Origin: a virus
Length of the DNA stretch: 64,000 nt
Strand: one strand, 5' to 3'
Virus record (IMG/VR): IMGVR_UViG_3300032050_000004
Coordinates: 158,070 to 222,069 of that record
Shown: positions 2,488-55,390 of the stretch, piece after piece
Numbering within the stretch: the first letter of the stretch is position 1
Layout: each line of letters begins with the position of its first letter
The notes under the pieces: generated by a model
Databases searched by the model: none
Told to the model about the DNA's origin: nothing
What the model saw: only the letters and a program-made list of their open reading frames with translations
Position numbers and translations under genes: made by a program

Positions 2488-3894
2488 ATGAAAAATTTTA
2501 TTTTTTTAGTTTTTTTATTTACATTATTATTTAATTCTTTATTTGGTCAAATACCTACAAGATTAATAGTAAATCCGGGTTTTGAACAACCTTCATTAGG
2601 TTGTACCAATTGTTATAACTTATTTCCAGTAGCTAGTGTTCCCGGTTGGAAAACTACAGATCCAACTGCTGTAATAGAAATTTGGGGTACTGGTTTTCAA
2701 AGCAAAACTTCACGTTCAGGAATTCAATTTGCTGAAATAAATGCGAACAATTCAGCTTTTTTATATCAAGAGTTATGTTTAGCTCCCAATGAAGTTGTTA
2801 ATTATTCTATTTGGTATTTGAAAAGGACTACAAATACAGAACAGATGAGAGCACAATTGACTGAATTAAATAATACTGTTATATCTCAATCTGTAGTTTA
2901 TACAGCAACAAATAGTTGGGTTAATTATACGGGCACTTTGACAAATAATGGTACAGGAGGTTTAAAAAGAATAGGTTTTGTTGCTGTTACTGGTGGATCT
3001 ACAGGTAACTTGATTGATGATATTACTATATCATTAAAACCAATAATTAGTCTAAAAAACTTTACGCCTTCTAGACAAAATGAAGGTGTTCAAACAAATT
3101 TAATTTTAATTGTAAATGGTACATTGACATCTCCGGCAACAATTAATTTAAATTTAACGGGTACTGCCACTTATCCAAATGATTTTACAATAGGTAATCC
3201 TAGCAGAGGGACAATTTCAATTAATTCAGGAAATATAACTTTAAATCTGCCATCTGGAGATTATAATCCAAATTTAAACTCTGGAACCAATCTAGGTGAA
3301 ATATCAATTCCGATAACAGGGTTGACAGATGGAATCAATGAACCAAGTGAAACAATTACATATACTCTTTCATCTGTATCAGGAGGTGGAATCAACTTTC
3401 CACTTGTTGCTGGTCTAAATGGTATAGGAGCAAATTGTTCAACATATATAGGCTCTGTCACGGATACAATAAATAATTTTTCACCACTACCAATACAATT
3501 ACTTTATTTCTTGGGATTTGTGAAAAATGAAAAGGTTGAACTTAACTGGAAAACTGCTAGTGAAATAAATAATGATTATTTTACTGTTTATGAATCTAAC
3601 AATTTAAATGATTTAAATGAATTAATTAGGATAGATGGTGCAGGAAATTCAAATTTTCCTAGAGAATATTCCTGTGTTGATTTAACTCCATCAAAATATT
3701 ATAAATTATGTCAAACAGATTATGATGGTAAATATGAATGTTTCGATTGGATTTCAGTTAATTTAAATAGTAAGGAAGACCCAATATATAGAATTTATGA
3801 TGTTTTCGGAAGAGAAACCAGCTTGGATCACGAAGGAGTAATAATCATAGTGGATGAGAGAGGAAAAGCACAAAAAATTTTAATTAAAAAATAA
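2488..3894 (+). CDS. Secreted multidomain protein with T9SS-like C-terminal sorting domain
   Basis: 468 aa. Residues 1-20 are a signal peptide ending LFGQ. Residues about 25-185 resemble a jelly-roll, carbohydrate-binding type domain (NPGFEQP, VPGWKT, GIQFAEIN). A Calx-beta-like or Ig-like segment follows (about 190-325). Residues about 332-425 have the pattern of Bacteroidetes extracellular proteins (LPIQLLYF, LNWKTASEINNDYFTVY, YYKLCQTDYDGKY). The end (IYRIYDVFGRE, then GVIIIVDERGKAQKILIKK) resembles a type IX secretion type A sorting domain. Predicted to leave the host cell through the periplasm and the host T9SS, or to be attached at the surface. Lies 6 nt after the spanin-like gene. Enzymatic function not recognised. 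Confidence 0.8.
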   Translation: MKNFIFLVFLFTLLFNSLFGQIPTRLIVNPGFEQPSLGCTNCYNLFPVASVPGWKTTDPTAVIEIWGTGFQSKTSRSGIQFAEINANNSAFLYQELCLAPNEVVNYSIWYLKRTTNTEQMRAQLTELNNTVISQSVVYTATNSWVNYTGTLTNNGTGGLKRIGFVAVTGGSTGNLIDDITISLKPIISLKNFTPSRQNEGVQTNLILIVNGTLTSPATINLNLTGTATYPNDFTIGNPSRGTISINSGNITLNLPSGDYNPNLNSGTNLGEISIPITGLTDGINEPSETITYTLSSVSGGGINFPLVAGLNGIGANCSTYIGSVTDTINNFSPLPIQLLYFLGFVKNEKVELNWKTASEINNDYFTVYESNNLNDLNELIRIDGAGNSNFPREYSCVDLTPSKYYKLCQTDYDGKYECFDWISVNLNSKEDPIYRIYDVFGRETSLDHEGVIIIVDERGKAQKILIKK

Positions 3895-32518: not shown

Positions 32519-32794
32519 ATGAAACTTACTAAAAAGGAATTTGAGAACCTTATTAAAGAAGAAGTGAAGAAAGCTATCGAGGAAATTAATATTCTTGGTG
32601 AAGGTAAATCTAAACCCTCGGCTGGTCTTTCTGCAAAACAAAAATCCAAAGTTGCTAAAAAAGCAAAAAAAGGTGGTGATATCGGTAAGCCCGGTAAAGG
32701 TTTCAAAGATGTTGAAGCTAAAGCAAAAGAATGGGGTGCTGATGATCCTAAAGCCGTAGCAGCAGCTGTATTATGGAAAAATGTGAAAAGATAG
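32519..32794 (+). CDS. Small basic protein with capsid-targeting-like leader
   Basis: 91 aa. Leader MKLTKKEFENLIKEEVKKAI, ending ILGEG (possible cut after Glu), then a Lys-rich body (LSAKQKSKVAKKAKKGGDIG) and KGFKDVEAKAKEWGADDPKA with AVAAAVLWKNVKR, a pattern seen in other phage small proteins. After removal of the leader the product would be a compact, very basic peptide suitable for binding packaged DNA. The 3' end overlaps the HNH gene by 22 nt. Ends in TAG. Confidence 0.7.
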   Translation: MKLTKKEFENLIKEEVKKAIEEINILGEGKSKPSAGLSAKQKSKVAKKAKKGGDIGKPGKGFKDVEAKAKEWGADDPKAVAAAVLWKNVKR

Positions 32795-33222
32795 ATCTTA
32801 AATGTAATGTTTGTTCTGATAAATTAAATAATTTTAATTGGTCTTCAGGAAAACAGAAAAAAGGATGGTTTATTTGTAATAATTGTCATACGGACAAATA
32901 TAAAAAATACAGAAAAAAACATCCGTTCAAGGCTCGTCTTTCATATTTTAACAAAAGATACGATGGAAATTTGAAAGTTCAAGATCTTGAATTAATTTAC
33001 GAAAATCAAAAAAAGAACTGTCCACTATGTGGTGATCCTATTGATATAAAAGATAAATTTTGTTTAGATCATGTCGTTGCTAGAAATAGTGAAGGTTTAA
33101 CAACAAAAGAAAATATCCAAATATTATGTGAAAATTGTAATATTGGAAAATTTAAAATGAGTACAGAAGATTATATAAAACATTGTGAAAAAGTAGTAAA
33201 TAATTATAAAAAAAATGATTGA
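32773..33222 (+). CDS. Free-standing HNH endonuclease
   Basis: 149 aa with two zinc-binding CxxC pairs near the N-terminus (CNVCSDK, CNNCHTD), then the HNH core: CPLCGDPIDIKDKFCLDHVV (His of the active site), then ENIQILCENCNIGKF. Typical of mobile group-I-style or free-standing HNH endonucleases of phages. Its start lies inside the previous gene (22-nt overlap) and its stop overlaps the next by 8 nt, so it seems to have inserted between two phage genes without breaking them. Confidence 0.8.
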   Translation: MEKCEKIDLKCNVCSDKLNNFNWSSGKQKKGWFICNNCHTDKYKKYRKKHPFKARLSYFNKRYDGNLKVQDLELIYENQKKNCPLCGDPIDIKDKFCLDHVVARNSEGLTTKENIQILCENCNIGKFKMSTEDYIKHCEKVVNNYKKND

Positions 33223-35024: not shown

Positions 35025-35025
35025 G

Positions 35026-35099
35026 TAGTCCCGAGGCGATTCGAACGCCTGACCGTCTGCTTAGAAGGCAGATGCTCTATCCAGCTGAGCTACAGGACC
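35026..35099 (-). tRNA. tRNA-Arg (anticodon TCT)
   Basis: Full cloverleaf by eye: acceptor GGTCCTG/CGGGACT (with two G-U pairs), D stem GCTC/GAGC, anticodon stem TCTGC/GCAGA with loop CTTCTAA, T stem AGGCG/CGCCT with loop TTCGAAT. CCA is not encoded (only the discriminator A), so it needs a CCA-adding enzyme. AGA codons, read by TCT, are frequent in the AT-rich genes here. Confidence 0.93.
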
Positions 35100-35105
35100 A
35101 ATTAG

Positions 35106-35177
35106 TAGCGGGAAGAGGATTCGAACCTCTGACTTCCAGATTATGAGTCTGGTGACCTACCTCTGGTCCATCCCGCA
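35106..35177 (-). tRNA. tRNA-Met (anticodon CAT)
   Basis: Acceptor TGCGGGA/TCCCGCT with a 1:72 mismatch, D stem GACC/GGTC, anticodon stem CCAGA/TCTGG with loop CTCATAA, T arm AGGAGG-type stem (AGAGG/CCTCT) with TTCGAAT. The unpaired first position resembles initiator tRNAs, but the three G-C pairs of an initiator anticodon stem are missing. Elongator Met, or Ile2 with lysidine, remain possible. Confidence 0.85.
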
Positions 35178-35249
35178 GTATTTTTTTCTTATTACAAAAA
35201 TAGTAATAAAAAATTAAAAACAAATTTTATAATAAAATTATAAGATTTG

Positions 35250-35323
35250 CTCTCCTGACTGGGCTCGAACCAGTGACCCATTGATTAACAGTCAATTGCT
35301 CTGACCTACTGAGCTACAGGAGA
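35250..35323 (-). tRNA. tRNA-Asn (anticodon GTT)
   Basis: Perfect acceptor stem TCTCCTG/CAGGAGA, D stem GCTC/GAGC, anticodon stem ATTGA/TCAAT with loop CTGTTAA, T stem ACTGG/CCAGT with loop TTCGAGC. No encoded CCA. Asn codons are very common in the Asn-rich tail proteins of this phage. Confidence 0.93.
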
Positions 35324-35576
35324 TTTTTTTAATTTATGTAGCCGGGGCGGGAATCGAACCCGCAAGACCTTTAGGGGTCAATGGATTTTCTTACTACTAT
35401 AGTTTTCACTACCCTTTCGGTTTGTAGTCTGGACTATACCTTCACCATATTTATCAACTTAGGTGTTCCGTGTCTAGTCTCTACACACGCCCAGTTATAA
35501 TTATTATAACTTGCTTGGCTCGGTATTCCCATTTTACAGGGTTCACCGAATTTACGGAATTCTACTCTCGAAATTT

Positions 35577-36056
35577 CTAACGAGGCACTCTATTTTTATT
35601 TTTTCCACGATAAGTAAAAGTAAAAGCGTGACAGTTTGGACATAAAATTTTTAAATTTTCTATTCTATTATCATCATTTATACCATTAATATGCTCTAAT
35701 TCAAGTGGAATTTCTTTATTCATCCAATGAGTATTTAAACAAGATTCGCATTTTTTTTCTTTAATACCTTCTTTAAATAATCTCAATTTCAATTTATAAG
35801 TTTGAGTATAAGGAGAATTTTCTATTAGAATTTCTTCTATTTTAAATTCTTTACCAAACTTTCTAAATTTCTCTCCTTGATTCCAAGCAGATCCTGTAAA
35901 ATGAGAAATATCAATATTAAATTTCTTGAATTTTAGTTTCAACGTTTTATAATTACCACCAACTGGTAATATTTTTAGTTGCCTACAAACTTCAGCTATT
36001 GATAAACTATTTTTTACAATTACTTCTAATTCTTCTTTCGTATATTTATATTTCAT
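35577..36056 (-). CDS. Intron-encoded HNH homing endonuclease
   Basis: 159 aa. An N-terminal helix-turn-helix-like DNA-binding part (TKEELEVIVKNSLSIAEVCR, then LKLKFKKFNIDISHF), a linker, and an HNH/zinc core: KKCESCLNTHW, PLELEHINGINDDNRIENLK and ILCPNCHAF. It should cut intronless tRNA-Leu genes to spread the intron. The gene fills most of the intron, beginning 42 nt from the 5' splice site and ending about 187 nt before the 3' site. It has its own CTATTTATA-type box 3 nt upstream, inside the intron. Confidence 0.9.
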   Translation of the reverse strand: MKYKYTKEELEVIVKNSLSIAEVCRQLKILPVGGNYKTLKLKFKKFNIDISHFTGSAWNQGEKFRKFGKEFKIEEILIENSPYTQTYKLKLRLFKEGIKEKKCESCLNTHWMNKEIPLELEHINGINDDNRIENLKILCPNCHAFTFTYRGKNKNRVPR

Positions 36057-36059
36057 GAA

Positions 36060-36068
36060 TATAAATAG
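36060..36068 (-). promoter_or_regulatory. Candidate phage promoter box CTATTTATA inside the intron
   Basis: CTATTTATA on the minus strand, 3 nt before the HNH ATG, so the endonuclease may be transcribed without the tRNA exon, as the T4 td intron gene is from an internal late promoter. Confidence 0.45.
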
Positions 36069-36184
36069 TAAGAAAAAAGTTAAACGTGGTTATAGTCAAA
36101 GTCCATCGTGTTTGCCTATTTCACCACCCGGCCATTAATTCAAAGAACAACGATACAAATATATATAAAATATATATAAAAACA

Positions 36185-50336: not shown

Positions 50337-52697
50337 ATGGCACAAACAGTATTCGTTTCACCGGGAGTATACACAAGAGAGCAAGATTTCACATTCTTCG
50401 CTTCAAGAATAGGTTTAACCAGACTTGGATTGGTCGGTTTAACGCCCAAAGGTCCTGCTTTTGAACCAATAAAAATTGCTTCATCAGAAGGGTTTTCTAA
50501 TAGATTTGGTAATCCAAACTCTGATTATCCTTTAACATATGTTGCATACAGATTTTTATCACAATCATCTGAATTGACTCTTACAAGAGTACTTGGTAAG
50601 GTTGGTTATTCAGGTTCAAATGCATGGTTGATAACTTCGGAGGCTTCTGCATATGAGTGGAGTGGTACTACGCTATCTGTTATCAAAAGTAAAAAAGATC
50701 CGAATACTGGAAATTTTTATTATACTGGTTCTACAGATTTAACATTATTTGGAACAAGTACTTTATTAAATTCATTTGGAATTTCTGGAACAACAGGACC
50801 TATCACTGGATTTTCTAGTTCAGCTATAACTGTATCACTTAATGAAGCTGATGATACTTATATTTTGAAATTAGTGGGTCAAACCCCTAAAAGTTTTGAT
50901 GGTGATACTGGTTTTTATGTAGATTCAATTTTCCCACACTTAATTGGTCAATGTGCTACATATACAGCATCAACAATTGCTGGTAACATAGGAACAGCAT
51001 TGACAACTTCATTTGAATTTAAGTCAAATGATGCATATAAGGATTATACAGAACAATTCAGGAATTCTATAACTCCAATGATTGTTGGTCAGGTTGTAGG
51101 AAGTACGGTTAGGGATTTGTTTAAAGTTGAAACTATATCTGATGGTGATGCTTCTGCTGCAGAAATAAAAGTTTCTTTTGTAAACTTAGATCCTGCCAAT
51201 AATACATTTGATTTAGTTGTAAGAAGATTTTTCGACACTGATGCAAGTACTTTGACTAGTGGTAGATTAGAATTGTTCCGTCAATGTACAATGGATAGAA
51301 CTAAGCCAAACTTTGTTGGTAAAATGATAGGTACAACGGATGAAATATATCCAAGACAATCAAATTACATAACAATAACTTTAGCAGATAATTTCCCACA
51401 AGATCAAGTTCCTGCTGGTTTCAGAGGTTATACATTAAGAACTGGCACAACTGCTAATGTTCCTCAAATTCTTTATAAAACAAGTTACCTTTCTTCAGAT
51501 ACTGTTTCTAAAACATATTTAGGTTGTTCTGAATTAGCATATACTGGTTTAACATCTGTTGTTGTAGGTGTAAAAAATGCAATACAAACTTTAGAAAAAG
51601 ATATTTTTAAATTCCAAGGTTCTGATTCAACAGATGTAGCTACTGTTAAAGGTTTTCATATGGAAAGCACAGCTCCAACATCTACTTTCTATACTGGTAT
51701 TGAAACAAGTTTGACTGATTATGAAAAACCAGAAAGAAAATTCACAGTAGCTCCTTTTGGTGGATTTGATGGATGGCAACCTTATACAATTCCAACCTTC
51801 ACTAATGATGTTGCTGATGAAGACAATTTAGACGCATTTAAACTTTGTGTTGATTTAATGGCACCACCTGAGTCTGTGGATATAAATGTATTTGCTGCTC
51901 CAGATGTAAATTATTCAGATAATTTGAATGCTGTTAATTATTGCTTGACTATGGTTGAAGATAGAGCAGACTCTATATATGTAATAGAAAGTCCAAGATT
52001 GTCTACTGATTCTGCAAAAGCAACCGCTTCACAAGCTGCTGCTGCTGTAGAAGAATCTGGTATTGATTCTAGTTATGCAGCTACATATTGGCCTTGGATT
52101 CAAATTGAAGACCCAACAAGTAATAAATTCATTTATATTTCTCCAACTTCAGAAGTTGTAAAAAATATAGCTTTAACTGATAATATTGCATATTCTTGGT
52201 ACGCACCAGCAGGTCTAAATAGAGGTCAAGTGACTTGTGTTAGAGCTGACATAAATCTCTCTAGAGATGATCGTGATACTTTGTATGATGCAAATATTAA
52301 TCCGATTAATACAGTTGCTCAACAAGGTGTAACAATTCAAGGTCAGAAAACTATGCAAATTGAACAATCTGCTTTGGATAGAATAAATGTTAGAAGATTG
52401 TTGTTACAAGTTAGAAGATTAGTTGCAGCTGCTTCACAGACATTGTTATTCGAACCAAACGATCAAACAGTGCGTGACCAATTCTTAGCAAAAGTTGAGC
52501 CTATATTGTTACAAATACAAAATCAGAGAGGTATATTCGCATATAAAGTTACAGTAGATGATTTTAATACAGCTACTGAAGATTCTGATAGAAATACTTT
52601 AACTGGTAAAATAGCAATTAAACCTACACCGGCTCTTGAATTTATAGATCTTACATTCCAAGTTCTTCCTACTGGAGCAAATTTTGAAGATTTCTAA
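50337..52697 (+). CDS. 18: Tail sheath protein, copy 1 (T4 gp18-like)
   Basis: 786 aa (T4 gp18 is 659). N-terminus MAQTVFVSPGVYTREQDFTF, typical of contractile sheaths; the central domain is variable; the conserved C-terminal part reads TYWPWIQIEDPTSNKFIYIS, SWYAPAGLNRGQV, then RINVRRLLLQVRRLVAAASQ, FEPNDQTVRDQFLAKVEPIL and PALEFIDLTFQVLPTGANFE. It polymerises around the tube and contracts on infection. 54 nt before a second sheath gene that shares both ends. Confidence 0.95.
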   Translation: MAQTVFVSPGVYTREQDFTFFASRIGLTRLGLVGLTPKGPAFEPIKIASSEGFSNRFGNPNSDYPLTYVAYRFLSQSSELTLTRVLGKVGYSGSNAWLITSEASAYEWSGTTLSVIKSKKDPNTGNFYYTGSTDLTLFGTSTLLNSFGISGTTGPITGFSSSAITVSLNEADDTYILKLVGQTPKSFDGDTGFYVDSIFPHLIGQCATYTASTIAGNIGTALTTSFEFKSNDAYKDYTEQFRNSITPMIVGQVVGSTVRDLFKVETISDGDASAAEIKVSFVNLDPANNTFDLVVRRFFDTDASTLTSGRLELFRQCTMDRTKPNFVGKMIGTTDEIYPRQSNYITITLADNFPQDQVPAGFRGYTLRTGTTANVPQILYKTSYLSSDTVSKTYLGCSELAYTGLTSVVVGVKNAIQTLEKDIFKFQGSDSTDVATVKGFHMESTAPTSTFYTGIETSLTDYEKPERKFTVAPFGGFDGWQPYTIPTFTNDVADEDNLDAFKLCVDLMAPPESVDINVFAAPDVNYSDNLNAVNYCLTMVEDRADSIYVIESPRLSTDSAKATASQAAAAVEESGIDSSYAATYWPWIQIEDPTSNKFIYISPTSEVVKNIALTDNIAYSWYAPAGLNRGQVTCVRADINLSRDDRDTLYDANINPINTVAQQGVTIQGQKTMQIEQSALDRINVRRLLLQVRRLVAAASQTLLFEPNDQTVRDQFLAKVEPILLQIQNQRGIFAYKVTVDDFNTATEDSDRNTLTGKIAIKPTPALEFIDLTFQVLPTGANFEDF

Positions 52698-52750: not shown

Positions 52751-55390
52751 ATGGCACAAACAGTATTCGTTTCACCGGGAGTATATACAAGAGAGCAAGA
52801 TTTCACGTTCTTCGCTTCAAGAATAGGTATAACTAGATTGGGAATGGTGGGATTAACCTTAAAAGGTCCCGCATTTGAACCAGTAAAAGTTCCATCACAA
52901 GAGAATTTCTTGTTCAGATTTGGTGGTACCAATCCAGATTATCCTTTGCCTTACGTGGCAAATGCATTTTTGAATCAATCGTCTGAGTTGACGATGACAA
53001 GAGTGTTAGGAAAAGTTGGTTTCACAAATTCTCCTGCATGGATCATCTCTGCACCTACTGGAGCTTTATATTCTGGTACAACATCTAGATCTGGAATAAC
53101 TTTTAATGCAAATACCACATCAGTTATAAACTTTACAATTAATACATTAGAGGATTATATTGGTGGTGTTAGTGGTGATATTTCTGGTAATACCGCTGGT
53201 GGTAACACTGTAAATATTCACTTCAGTGGTTCTGTAACAACAGCTGTTTATTCTGCAGCATTCAATGTTGTAGCATCTTCGCTTGGTATTATATCTACTG
53301 GTGGTAATGGGACTGATTTGATAATTCCAGATACTTTCTCATTGAACAGTAACGTAAGTATATCGAATGACTATTCTGGAGCAACTTTATGTGTTATTAG
53401 AAGTAAAAAAGATGGAAATGGTACTCCATATTATTCGGCAGAAACAGATTTGACTGTGTCTGGTTTAGGATCTCCTCTAGGTGTATTTAGTTTATCCGGT
53501 GGATCTAATACACCATTGACTGCTTTAACTAATTCAACTCTTAATGTTTCTTTAGATGAAACACAAAAAAGTTATATAGTAAATTCTTTAGGTACTAATC
53601 CAAAAAATGTAGCAGGCGATTATGGTTTATTTGTTGATGTTGTGACACCTCATTTTATAAGACAAGCATTTTCGGCAGGAACTTTAAATCTACTTGAAGG
53701 TTTATCGTATTCCAATACGGTTAATTTTACAAATTTTGCAGATTCATATAAGAATTCTACAACACCGATGATTGTTTCAAAAGTTATAGGTTCATCAGTA
53801 AGAGATATGTTTTATTTTGAAACAGTTTCTGATGGAGATGCCTCATCTAGAGAAATAAAAATTTCTATAGCTAATATAGACAACACAAATAAAGTATTTG
53901 ATGTTGTTATTCGTAAATTCGAGGATACAGATGCTAATACTTTAACTAATGGAAGATTGGAATTATATAGGGGTCTTACAATGGATGACACTCAGCCGAA
54001 TTTCATAGGTAAAGCAATAGGTACAACAGATGAAACATATCCAAGAGTTTCCCAATTCGTAACTGTGACTTTGGCTGATAATTTCCCAAGAAACACAGTT
54101 CCGGCAGGTTTTAAAGGTTACAATTTGAGAACATTCGCAGATTCAGGTTTAACTTCTACTCAATTATTATACAAAACATCATATGCTGCTACTGATACTG
54201 TTTCTAAAACATATTTAGGAATTTCTGAATTAGCTTATACTTTGTTTACTGCTAATTTAGTAGGTCAAAAGGCTTCAATAAAATCAATAGAAGCAGATTT
54301 ATTTAAGTATCAAGGTGCTATCACAACTGGTGTTACAACAATAAAAGGCTTCCACATGGAAAGTGGTGCAACAACAGATTTGTTTGTAACTGGTACAAAA
54401 GGCTCTATTTCAGATTATACAAAATCTCAGGCTAAATTCACTGTAGCTCCGGCTGGTGGTTTCGACGGATGGAATCAATTTAGAACAGTTACATTTACTG
54501 ATGACGCTAATGATTTAGACAACGTTCAAGCATTCAAAGATGCTGTAGATTTAATGGCAATCCCTGAAACAGTAGATGTTAATTTATTTGCCACTCCTGA
54601 TTTAAATTGGTTTGATCATTATAAATCAGTAGAACATTCATTGACAATGGTTGAAAATAGAGCTGATGCAGTTTATATTATAGATGCTCCTCGTTATGCA
54701 TCTGATGGTTCTCAAGATAGTGCTGCAATAGCAACCGATTTACAAGGAGTAGGATTAGATTCAAATTATGCAGCAACATACTGGCCTTGGATTCAAATTT
54801 TCGACGCTACATATCAACAATTTGTATTTACTTCTCCAACATCTCAAGTTGTTAAAAGCATAGCATTAACTGATAACATTGCTTATCCATGGTTTGCACC
54901 TGCTGGTTTAACAAGAGGTAAAGTTGATTGTGTGAAAGCTGATGTTAAATTAACTAGAGATGATAGAGATAATCTTTATGATGTAAATATCAACCCTATA
55001 AACACAACAATTCAAGAAGGTGTTACAATTCAAGGTCAAAAAACTCTTCAGGTTAAGCAATCTGCTCTTGATAGAATTAACGTAAGAAGACTCTTGTTGC
55101 AAGTTCGCAGATTGATTGCTGCAGCTTCTCAGACCTTGTTATTCGAACCTAACGATCAGACTGTACGTGACCAGTTCTTAGCTAAAGTTGAACCTTTGTT
55201 ATTACAAATTCAAAACCAAAGAGGTCTTGCAGGATTCAGAGTAGTAGTTGACGATTTTAATAATGCTTCTGTAGATAGTGATAGAAATACCTTAACTGGT
55301 AAGATTCAAATCAAGCCTACTCCAGCTCTCGAATTCATTGACTTAACTTTCCAAGTTCTTCCTACTGGTGCTAATTTTGAAGACTTTTAA
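52751..55390 (+). CDS. 18: Tail sheath protein, copy 2 (T4 gp18-like)
   Basis: 879 aa. The first 28 residues and much of the last 190 match copy 1, and the DNA around the start is nearly identical. It differs in the outer domains and has an extra beta-rich insert of about 90 residues near 105-215 (SVINFTINTLEDYIGGVSGD, STGGNGTDLIIPDTFSLNSN). C-terminus has more C-ending codons than copy 1, which suggests higher expression. A strong terminator follows. Both copies appear intact, so the sheath may be a mixed polymer. Confidence 0.95.
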   Translation: MAQTVFVSPGVYTREQDFTFFASRIGITRLGMVGLTLKGPAFEPVKVPSQENFLFRFGGTNPDYPLPYVANAFLNQSSELTMTRVLGKVGFTNSPAWIISAPTGALYSGTTSRSGITFNANTTSVINFTINTLEDYIGGVSGDISGNTAGGNTVNIHFSGSVTTAVYSAAFNVVASSLGIISTGGNGTDLIIPDTFSLNSNVSISNDYSGATLCVIRSKKDGNGTPYYSAETDLTVSGLGSPLGVFSLSGGSNTPLTALTNSTLNVSLDETQKSYIVNSLGTNPKNVAGDYGLFVDVVTPHFIRQAFSAGTLNLLEGLSYSNTVNFTNFADSYKNSTTPMIVSKVIGSSVRDMFYFETVSDGDASSREIKISIANIDNTNKVFDVVIRKFEDTDANTLTNGRLELYRGLTMDDTQPNFIGKAIGTTDETYPRVSQFVTVTLADNFPRNTVPAGFKGYNLRTFADSGLTSTQLLYKTSYAATDTVSKTYLGISELAYTLFTANLVGQKASIKSIEADLFKYQGAITTGVTTIKGFHMESGATTDLFVTGTKGSISDYTKSQAKFTVAPAGGFDGWNQFRTVTFTDDANDLDNVQAFKDAVDLMAIPETVDVNLFATPDLNWFDHYKSVEHSLTMVENRADAVYIIDAPRYASDGSQDSAAIATDLQGVGLDSNYAATYWPWIQIFDATYQQFVFTSPTSQVVKSIALTDNIAYPWFAPAGLTRGKVDCVKADVKLTRDDRDNLYDVNINPINTTIQEGVTIQGQKTLQVKQSALDRINVRRLLLQVRRLIAAASQTLLFEPNDQTVRDQFLAKVEPLLLQIQNQRGLAGFRVVVDDFNNASVDSDRNTLTGKIQIKPTPALEFIDLTFQVLPTGANFEDF

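Follow-up and report, generated by a model that had tools for sequence, protein, structure and literature searches.

A predicted self-splicing group I intron carrying a putative HNH homing gene in the tRNA-Leu(UAA) gene of a T4-like phage

We find that a phage tRNA-Leu(UAA) gene is split by an intron which, with high confidence, we read as a group I intron of the IC3 type, predicted to be self-splicing, with an HNH homing gene in its P1 loop and a ribozyme of the bacterial tRNA-intron family. The locus lies in the window, by which we mean the whole 64-kb stretch of DNA analysed here (positions 158070-222069 of a virus record of 222,069 bases). By its head and sheath families the phage is T4-like; two adjacent tail-sheath genes, at 50337-52697 and 52751-55390 of the window, were both assigned to phrog_23.

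In intron mode, ARAGORN places a tRNA-Leu(taa) on the minus strand at c(35338,36133), with a 709-nt intron and the break gactt/aaaat, that is between U34 and A35 of the anticodon loop, which is the insertion point of the cyanobacterial tRNA-Leu(UAA) intron, as had been predicted. The original prediction had put the locus at 35339-36133, correctly except for one end, since the gene extends one base further. The stems are kept in both halves and the exons, once joined, give a cloverleaf with a variable arm. The U before the 5' splice site (the final T of the 5' exon) and the G as last intron base are both present, and the three core strings quoted in the prediction were also found in the sequence. 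Plain ARAGORN and an Rfam scan at the gathering threshold, both over the whole 64-kb window, missed the split gene. The features of the locus and of the tRNA cluster are collected in Table 1.

Table 1. Features of the split tRNA-Leu(UAA) locus and neighbouring tRNA genes (window positions)
Feature	Position	Strand	Basis
5' exon of tRNA-Leu(UAA), ends ...GGACTT (U34)	36099-36133	-	ARAGORN intron mode
Promoter-like box, CTATTTATA	36060-36068	-	3 nt before HNH ATG at 36056
Group I intron, 709 nt, IC3-like	35390-36098	-	ARAGORN intron mode, RF00028, models R1 and R2
Putative HNH endonuclease gene, 159 aa, P1 loop	35577-36056	-	frame, phrog_10822, conserved residues
Internal guide GAGTGC, inside HNH frame, codon phase 1	35585-35590	-	pairing read from sequence
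P2, CTCG (35584-35581) with CGAG (35570-35567)	35567-35584	-	read from sequence
Ribozyme core, P3-P8 and P7	35430-35564	-	R1 97.7 bits, covariation
P3	35559-35554/35471-35466	-	
P4	35550-35545/35524-35519	-	
P7	35479-35475/35436-35432	-	
P8	35465-35462/35446-35443	-	
3' exon of tRNA-Leu(UAA), starts AAAATCC (A35)	35338-35389	-	ARAGORN intron mode
tRNA-Asn(gtt), next in cluster	35249-35323	-	ARAGORN and Rfam
tRNA-Met(cat)	35105-35177	-	ARAGORN and Rfam
tRNA-Arg(tct)	35025-35099	-	ARAGORN and Rfam

Four Rfam tRNA matches and one RF00028 match were obtained in the whole record. The fourth tRNA match (G000:C1:79951-80046) is a tRNA-like gene of 35.9 bits with a long variable region, not called by ARAGORN, and judged by its anticodon loop it is not a tRNA-Leu. 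Searches of the 222-kb record for tRNAs and Rfam families gave no second tRNA-Leu(UAA).

When a short stretch is searched with permissive filters, the Rfam group I model (RF00028, Intron_gpI; cut-off 50 bits) matches 35408-35628 on the minus strand with 50.3 bits, and the same 50.3 bits (E 6.7e-13) on the whole record; the window intron thus barely passes the cut-off. Together with the intron-mode call this bears out the predicted split by a group I intron, and neither of the two outcomes that the prediction had named as refuting it, a missing group I match or a second intact tRNA-Leu(UAA), was seen in the record. We then used R1, a covariance model built on 23 ORF-less bacterial tRNA-Leu introns, four of them cyanobacterial, from which the window intron, L050, L070, L118 and several other tRNA-Leu introns were left out. 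R1 scores 97.7 bits (E 1e-21) on the window intron and, even with E values as high as 10 allowed, finds nothing else in the 64 kb; since the window was not in the training set and this is the sole match, the result is more than chance. A scan of 11 loci at the Rfam gathering threshold returned no RF00028 match, and because R1 finds cores in several of these loci we consider that threshold too strict in fast mode.

Covariation was evaluated on 33 aligned cores, in which 94.3% of 792 cells are paired (77.5% in shuffles), 14 of the 24 pairs show a double change and 111 cells are double changes, against 29.9 in shuffles. Double changes affect all six pairs of P3, two of six in P4, two of four in P8 and one of five in P7, where the other four pairs are invariant and the last is AU in 23 cores, CG in 4, UA in 4 and GC in 2. 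P5 is weak, with 75.8% of cells paired across the same cores. Reading the sequence, GAGU of the internal guide (35590-35587) pairs with ACUU of the 5' exon to form P1, and P10 looks poor, AUA and not UUU preceding GAGU. It is possible to imagine that the split tRNA is dead, the host tRNA-Leu(UAA) being used in its place, and that the locus serves only as a platform for the HNH gene, as may be the case in Dulem virus 42 (L223), where an HNH relative sits in a split tRNA without an R1 match. We consider this quite unlikely for the window, where the core is complete and covarying, both halves keep their stems, the joined tRNA folds, and TTA makes up 604 of the 1214 leucine codons in the long frames.

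The original prediction had assigned the core to the T4-like subclass IA2 and had taken this to suggest that a T4-type intron independently reached the insertion point used by the cyanobacterial tRNA-Leu intron. Such an arrival would suit a phage with T4-like head and sheath families, IA introns being common in such phages. Here, we compared R1 with R2, a covariance model of six IA phage introns in whose training T4 td and nrdB were not included. R2 gives the window intron 44.6 bits, against the 97.7 of R1; on tRNA-Leu introns of bacteria it scores 26 to 44 bits, a range with which the window value agrees, while the untrained td and nrdB reach 57.2 and 52.7 bits. R1 scores 29.1 bits on T4 nrdD and 13.9 on td, has no match on nrdB and gives at most 50.4 bits on Twort introns, with 130.5 bits on the intron of the 735-kb phage LR756501 (L002) and 111.7 on L020. 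In the stretch GACTA-GAC-ACGGAA only 3 nt separate the 5' strand of P7 (GACTA) from the 3' strand of P3 (ACGGAA), which leaves no room for P7.1/P7.2, and this insertion is absent from the P7-P3' gap of the window intron, where T4 nrdD has two hairpins. In a tree of 134 cores (6 IA and 128 tRNA-type rows; 15 introns were dropped because the motif finder failed on them), the six IA rows stand apart from all 128 tRNA-type rows with SH-aLRT 97. From the scores, the gap and the tree we rejected the IA2 subclass, on which the case for independent arrival of a T4-type intron had been built; we now regard that scenario as highly improbable. Taken on the core sequences, descent within the widespread bacterial tRNA-intron family is favoured over it.

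Within this family the cyanobacterial tRNA-Leu introns form a clade of their own, which does not include the window and has support 100 in both core trees. The window intron pairs with L020 (98/95), and the nearest rows by path after L020 are L071 (a Bacteroidota MAG), L256 (Bacteroidota) and L002, in a weakly supported part of the tree. In the first tree the window fell inside a starred set of 15 phage and Bacteroidota rows; this set was not recovered with more Bacteroidota rows, only the pair of window and L020 staying starred, and we therefore claim no finer placement than that pair. Both the intron and the HNH trees have weak backbones, and the place of the window beyond its sister L020 differs between the two core trees. 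The common site and class could suggest that the phage took intron and tRNA-Leu gene directly from a cyanobacterium. We rejected this donor, which seems hardly credible with the window outside the supported cyanobacterial clade in both trees and with phages and Bacteroidota (L020, L071, L256, L002) as its nearest rows. On models and trees together, the window intron is IC3-like as in cyanobacteria, outside the cyanobacterial clade, and its ribozyme is a member of the bacterial tRNA-intron family, as is that of the cyanobacterial tRNA-Leu intron.

The HNH frame predicted to fill the 5' part of the intron is intact in the window and gives a strong match to phrog_10822, an HNH family of PHROGs (168.8 bits); with Pfam HNH_3 it stays below threshold (18.2 versus a cut-off of 24.8). 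Residues H122, N134 and H143 and cysteines 103, 106, 139 and 142, which we take to be the H-N-H motif and the zinc cysteines, are invariant in 12 of 12 aligned relatives. A structure model of the protein has a mean pLDDT of 83.6 and a pTM of 0.52. Searching the PDB for its fold returned nothing at E 0.001 or better, the best matches being McrA-type nucleases at a weak E of 0.068, and searching solved structures by sequence returned only a ribosomal protein (E 0.032). Elsewhere in the window, about 2.4 kb from the intron, there is a second and stronger HNH gene at 32773-33222 (PF01844, 35.2 bits).

The final codons of the HNH gene double as the internal guide and one strand of P2, with the stop codon in the P2 loop, which suggests that a single RNA molecule should not be able both to be translated as far as the stop and to splice. 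Six P1-loop genes were compared, and in five of them the HNH frame contains the guide GAGTGC, 13-40 nt away from the end of the frame; the codon phase is 1 for the window and 2 for the other four. The exception is L019, a broken gene; L016, one of those with in-frame stops, continues its frame through P2 and P3, as do L014 and L172. In-frame stops under translation table 11 were seen in the HNH frames of L016, L017, L019, L021 and L026, pointing to recoding phages or to decay.

A promoter-like box 3 nt before the HNH start had been predicted as well, by analogy with T4 td, and the box is there. To see how common such a motif is, we counted heptamers in the 60 bases upstream of 62 predicted genes of the 64-kb window and in 100 Markov shuffles. 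TATTTAT is the top heptamer, in 21 of the 62 upstream windows against 4.0 in shuffles, and CTATTTA occurs 10 times against 0.9; CTATTTATA matches the most enriched one. The analogy with td does not extend to the letters, since the window box reads TATTTATA on the coding strand, and the T4 late promoter box is TATAAATA. TATTTAT precedes the HNH start codon by four bases in L011, L020 and the window, and is absent at that place before the HNH genes of L014, L016 and L019. From this statistical enrichment we take the box as a putative phage promoter or start-site signal; being very near the ATG, it would give a nearly leaderless transcript.

Related phages show the locus in different states. Six other contigs (L005-L010) are identical to the window locus over all 796 nt, and L015 (position 3249, IMGVR 3300008114), from the same phage, has lost 103 nt of the HNH gene while its intron core is unchanged. 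An intronless tRNA-Leu among related phages, a comparison suggested by the original prediction, was found in L247, where an unsplit tRNA-Leu(taa) with GACTTAAAATC intact occupies the syntenic place, followed by tRNA-Met and tRNA-Arg; a neighbouring protein is 85% identical, a conserved leader lies just upstream of tRNA-Leu, and R1 has no match in this 135-kb record. The tRNA-Leu of L247 differs from that of the window at many positions, so that the empty site should be called syntenic rather than near-identical. The intron could instead be an immobile fixture and the HNH gene a decaying passenger, as the L015 allele, with its core intact, might indicate, and as the overlap of the frame with guide and P2, which should limit HNH expression, would also allow. 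We consider this unlikely, given a frame intact in the window and in the six identical contigs, conserved catalytic and zinc residues, the gene's own promoter-like box, and the presence and absence of the intron among related phages.

Searches with the HNH protein found 43 loci, in 27 of which the gene lies within a tRNA-Leu split as GACTT/AAAAT; the 27 include seven from the window's own phage and amount to about 14 distinct ones. In other phage tRNA-Leu introns, HNH relatives occupy the loop of P1 or that of P6, and twelve other tRNA-Leu introns of the core set carry an ORF in P6, antisense in L022 and L108. They are also found free-standing beside tRNA genes, often tRNA-Leu. Among 17 annotated-phage loci, hand-picked from two HNH match lists and given here as raw adjacency counts, 15 have the HNH relative at most 200 bases from a tRNA and 9 have it beside or inside a tRNA-Leu (UAG in six, UAA in SE_PL, CAA in S-CRM01 and a split gene in L223), the other tRNA neighbours of free-standing relatives being Gln, Glu/Gly, Phe and Asn. 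In a tree of 48 HNH proteins there are at least seven changes between the intron-borne and the free-standing state. A single clade of all six P1-loop HNH genes was rejected (AU p 0.003); the window and L020 genes as sisters are a constraint compatible with the data (AU p 0.28), which gives no evidence of HNH replacement between these sister introns. Judging from this tree and these neighbourhoods, the HNH family resides near phage tRNA genes and has moved into tRNA introns of this kind at least twice.

The family also reaches chromosomes. G182, a 1.13-Mb Bacteroidota contig, carries a 725-nt tRNA-Leu intron whose P1 loop holds an HNH gene of the same family (53.6%), and its neighbours, hemE-like, carboxyl transferase and protease genes, indicate that the intron is chromosomal. 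In the chromosomal Bacteroidota loci L256/L275, where hemE-like and carboxyl transferase genes are the neighbours, the break is one base earlier, GGACT/TAAAATCC.

Other arrangements were noted during these searches. L011, L029, L045 and L047 (at about 2900-3570) have a 5' tRNA half, an HNH gene and a complete tRNA in that order, as if insertion of a homing gene had been followed by restoration of the tRNA gene downstream of it. L182 has on the minus strand (348-644 and 2-262) an ORF-less tRNA-Leu intron and a partial HNH relative just downstream of the tRNA gene. In Dulem virus 42 (L223:1898-2515) the anticodon loop of a split tRNA is taken up by the HNH relative, whose stop codon abuts the 3' tRNA half; R1 finds no ribozyme core there, and we read the tRNA as Leu, though ARAGORN labels it Met.

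A genome pattern scan gave at least 117 loci, mostly split tRNAs. The junction GACTT/...G/AAAAT is present in 75 of the 77 tRNA-Leu(taa) introns among the matches listed, duplicates included, and two have another. R1 matches at E 1e-6 or better were found, with stricter filters, in 25 of 395 Bacteroidota genomes. In phage tRNA-Asn(gtt) genes (L173, L180, L181, L184) the introns are short, at 206-207 nt, and carry no ORF, and Bacteroidota tRNA-Arg(tct) introns of 194-246 nt (L259-L261, L264, L267, L268, L270, L272) form one clade. In Pelagibacter phage HTVC120P (L004:1990-2108) R1 reaches 110 bits between two CDS annotated as capsid protein, apparently a tRNA-type intron core splitting a capsid gene.

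Among known systems, the IC3 intron of cyanobacterial and plastid tRNA-Leu(UAA) has the tRNA, the break between U34 and A35, the core class and the motifs in common with the window intron. The cyanobacterial introns differ in being a separate clade, ORF-less and 219-312 nt long, whereas that of the window has an HNH gene and lies in a phage. ORF-less tRNA-Leu introns of Alpha- and Gammaproteobacteria, Acidobacteria and Bacteroidota are like it in core, site and junction, but have no ORF; ORF-less L071 and L002 are among its nearest rows. The L256/L275 intron has its class, its HNH family (53.6%) in the P1 loop and a frame ending at P2, and differs in being chromosomal and in its earlier break. 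The IA introns of T4 (td, nrdB, nrdD) and Twort are also phage-borne group I introns, some with homing genes, but they sit in protein-coding hosts, have a P7.1/P7.2 core and score low with R1. The intron of cyanobacterial tRNA-fMet with I-Ssp6803I differs in its tRNA and in being bacterial, and I-Ssp6803I has a nuclease fold other than HNH. S-CRM01, cr111_1, SE_PL, Cronus, GodonK, Michonne and others have phrog_10822-like HNH genes beside tRNAs, without an intron. The trnL(UAA) intron is a textbook old intron; to our knowledge, how it spread and whether it ever homed is an open question.

According to the available text of a review, the phage introns observed to 2014 were all in protein-coding genes (Hausner et al. 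2014, PMC3984707), and those of crAss-like phages are likewise described in protein genes in the portion available of PMC7886860. The available part of a huge-phage paper (PMC7162821) makes no mention of introns, and bacterial tRNA group I introns are listed, in the accessible part of PMC4033280, for cyanobacteria and for alpha- and beta-proteobacteria. The nearest literature case found, as far as its accessible text goes, is a Vibrio phage of 2017 with a tRNA-Stop split by a 2.5-kb ORF area, a possible artefact according to its authors (PMC5746245). We found no report of a group I intron in a phage tRNA-Leu in the open literature, subscription papers and preprints being outside the scope of the search. 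Here an intron of the same class occupies the trnL(UAA) site in a phage, with an intact putative homing gene.

We propose that the pre-tRNA is transcribed together with the tRNA cluster. The pairing of the 5' exon ACUU with intron GAGU would then let the core splice out and yield tRNA-Leu(UAA), as its structure suggests, with the ligated exons reading ...GACUUAAAAUC... at the junction. The HNH protein would be made from the unspliced transcript or from one started at its own box, and, from the position of its gene, may cut or nick tRNA-Leu genes that lack the intron, in the host or in co-infecting phages, after which repair would copy the intron into the cut gene. Against tRNA-Leu(UAA) as the target stands that the tRNA-Leu genes next to free-standing relatives are mostly tRNA-Leu(UAG). 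An intact putative homing gene at the site, presence and absence among phages and a Bacteroidota relative together make the mobility of a trnL(UAA)-type intron directly testable.

It is also possible to hypothesize, tentatively and at somewhat less than even chances, that homing still goes on at the anticodon loop of tRNA-Leu(UAA), where an HNH family of phage tRNA arrays repeatedly captures IC3 introns and shuttles them between phage and chromosome. If this is true, captures would use either loop, P1 or P6, in sense or antisense, and through the overlap of HNH gene and guide any one transcript would serve either homing or tRNA maturation. In cyanobacteria and plastids the 'ancient, immobile' intron would then represent one branch that has settled, in a family whose phage members still move.
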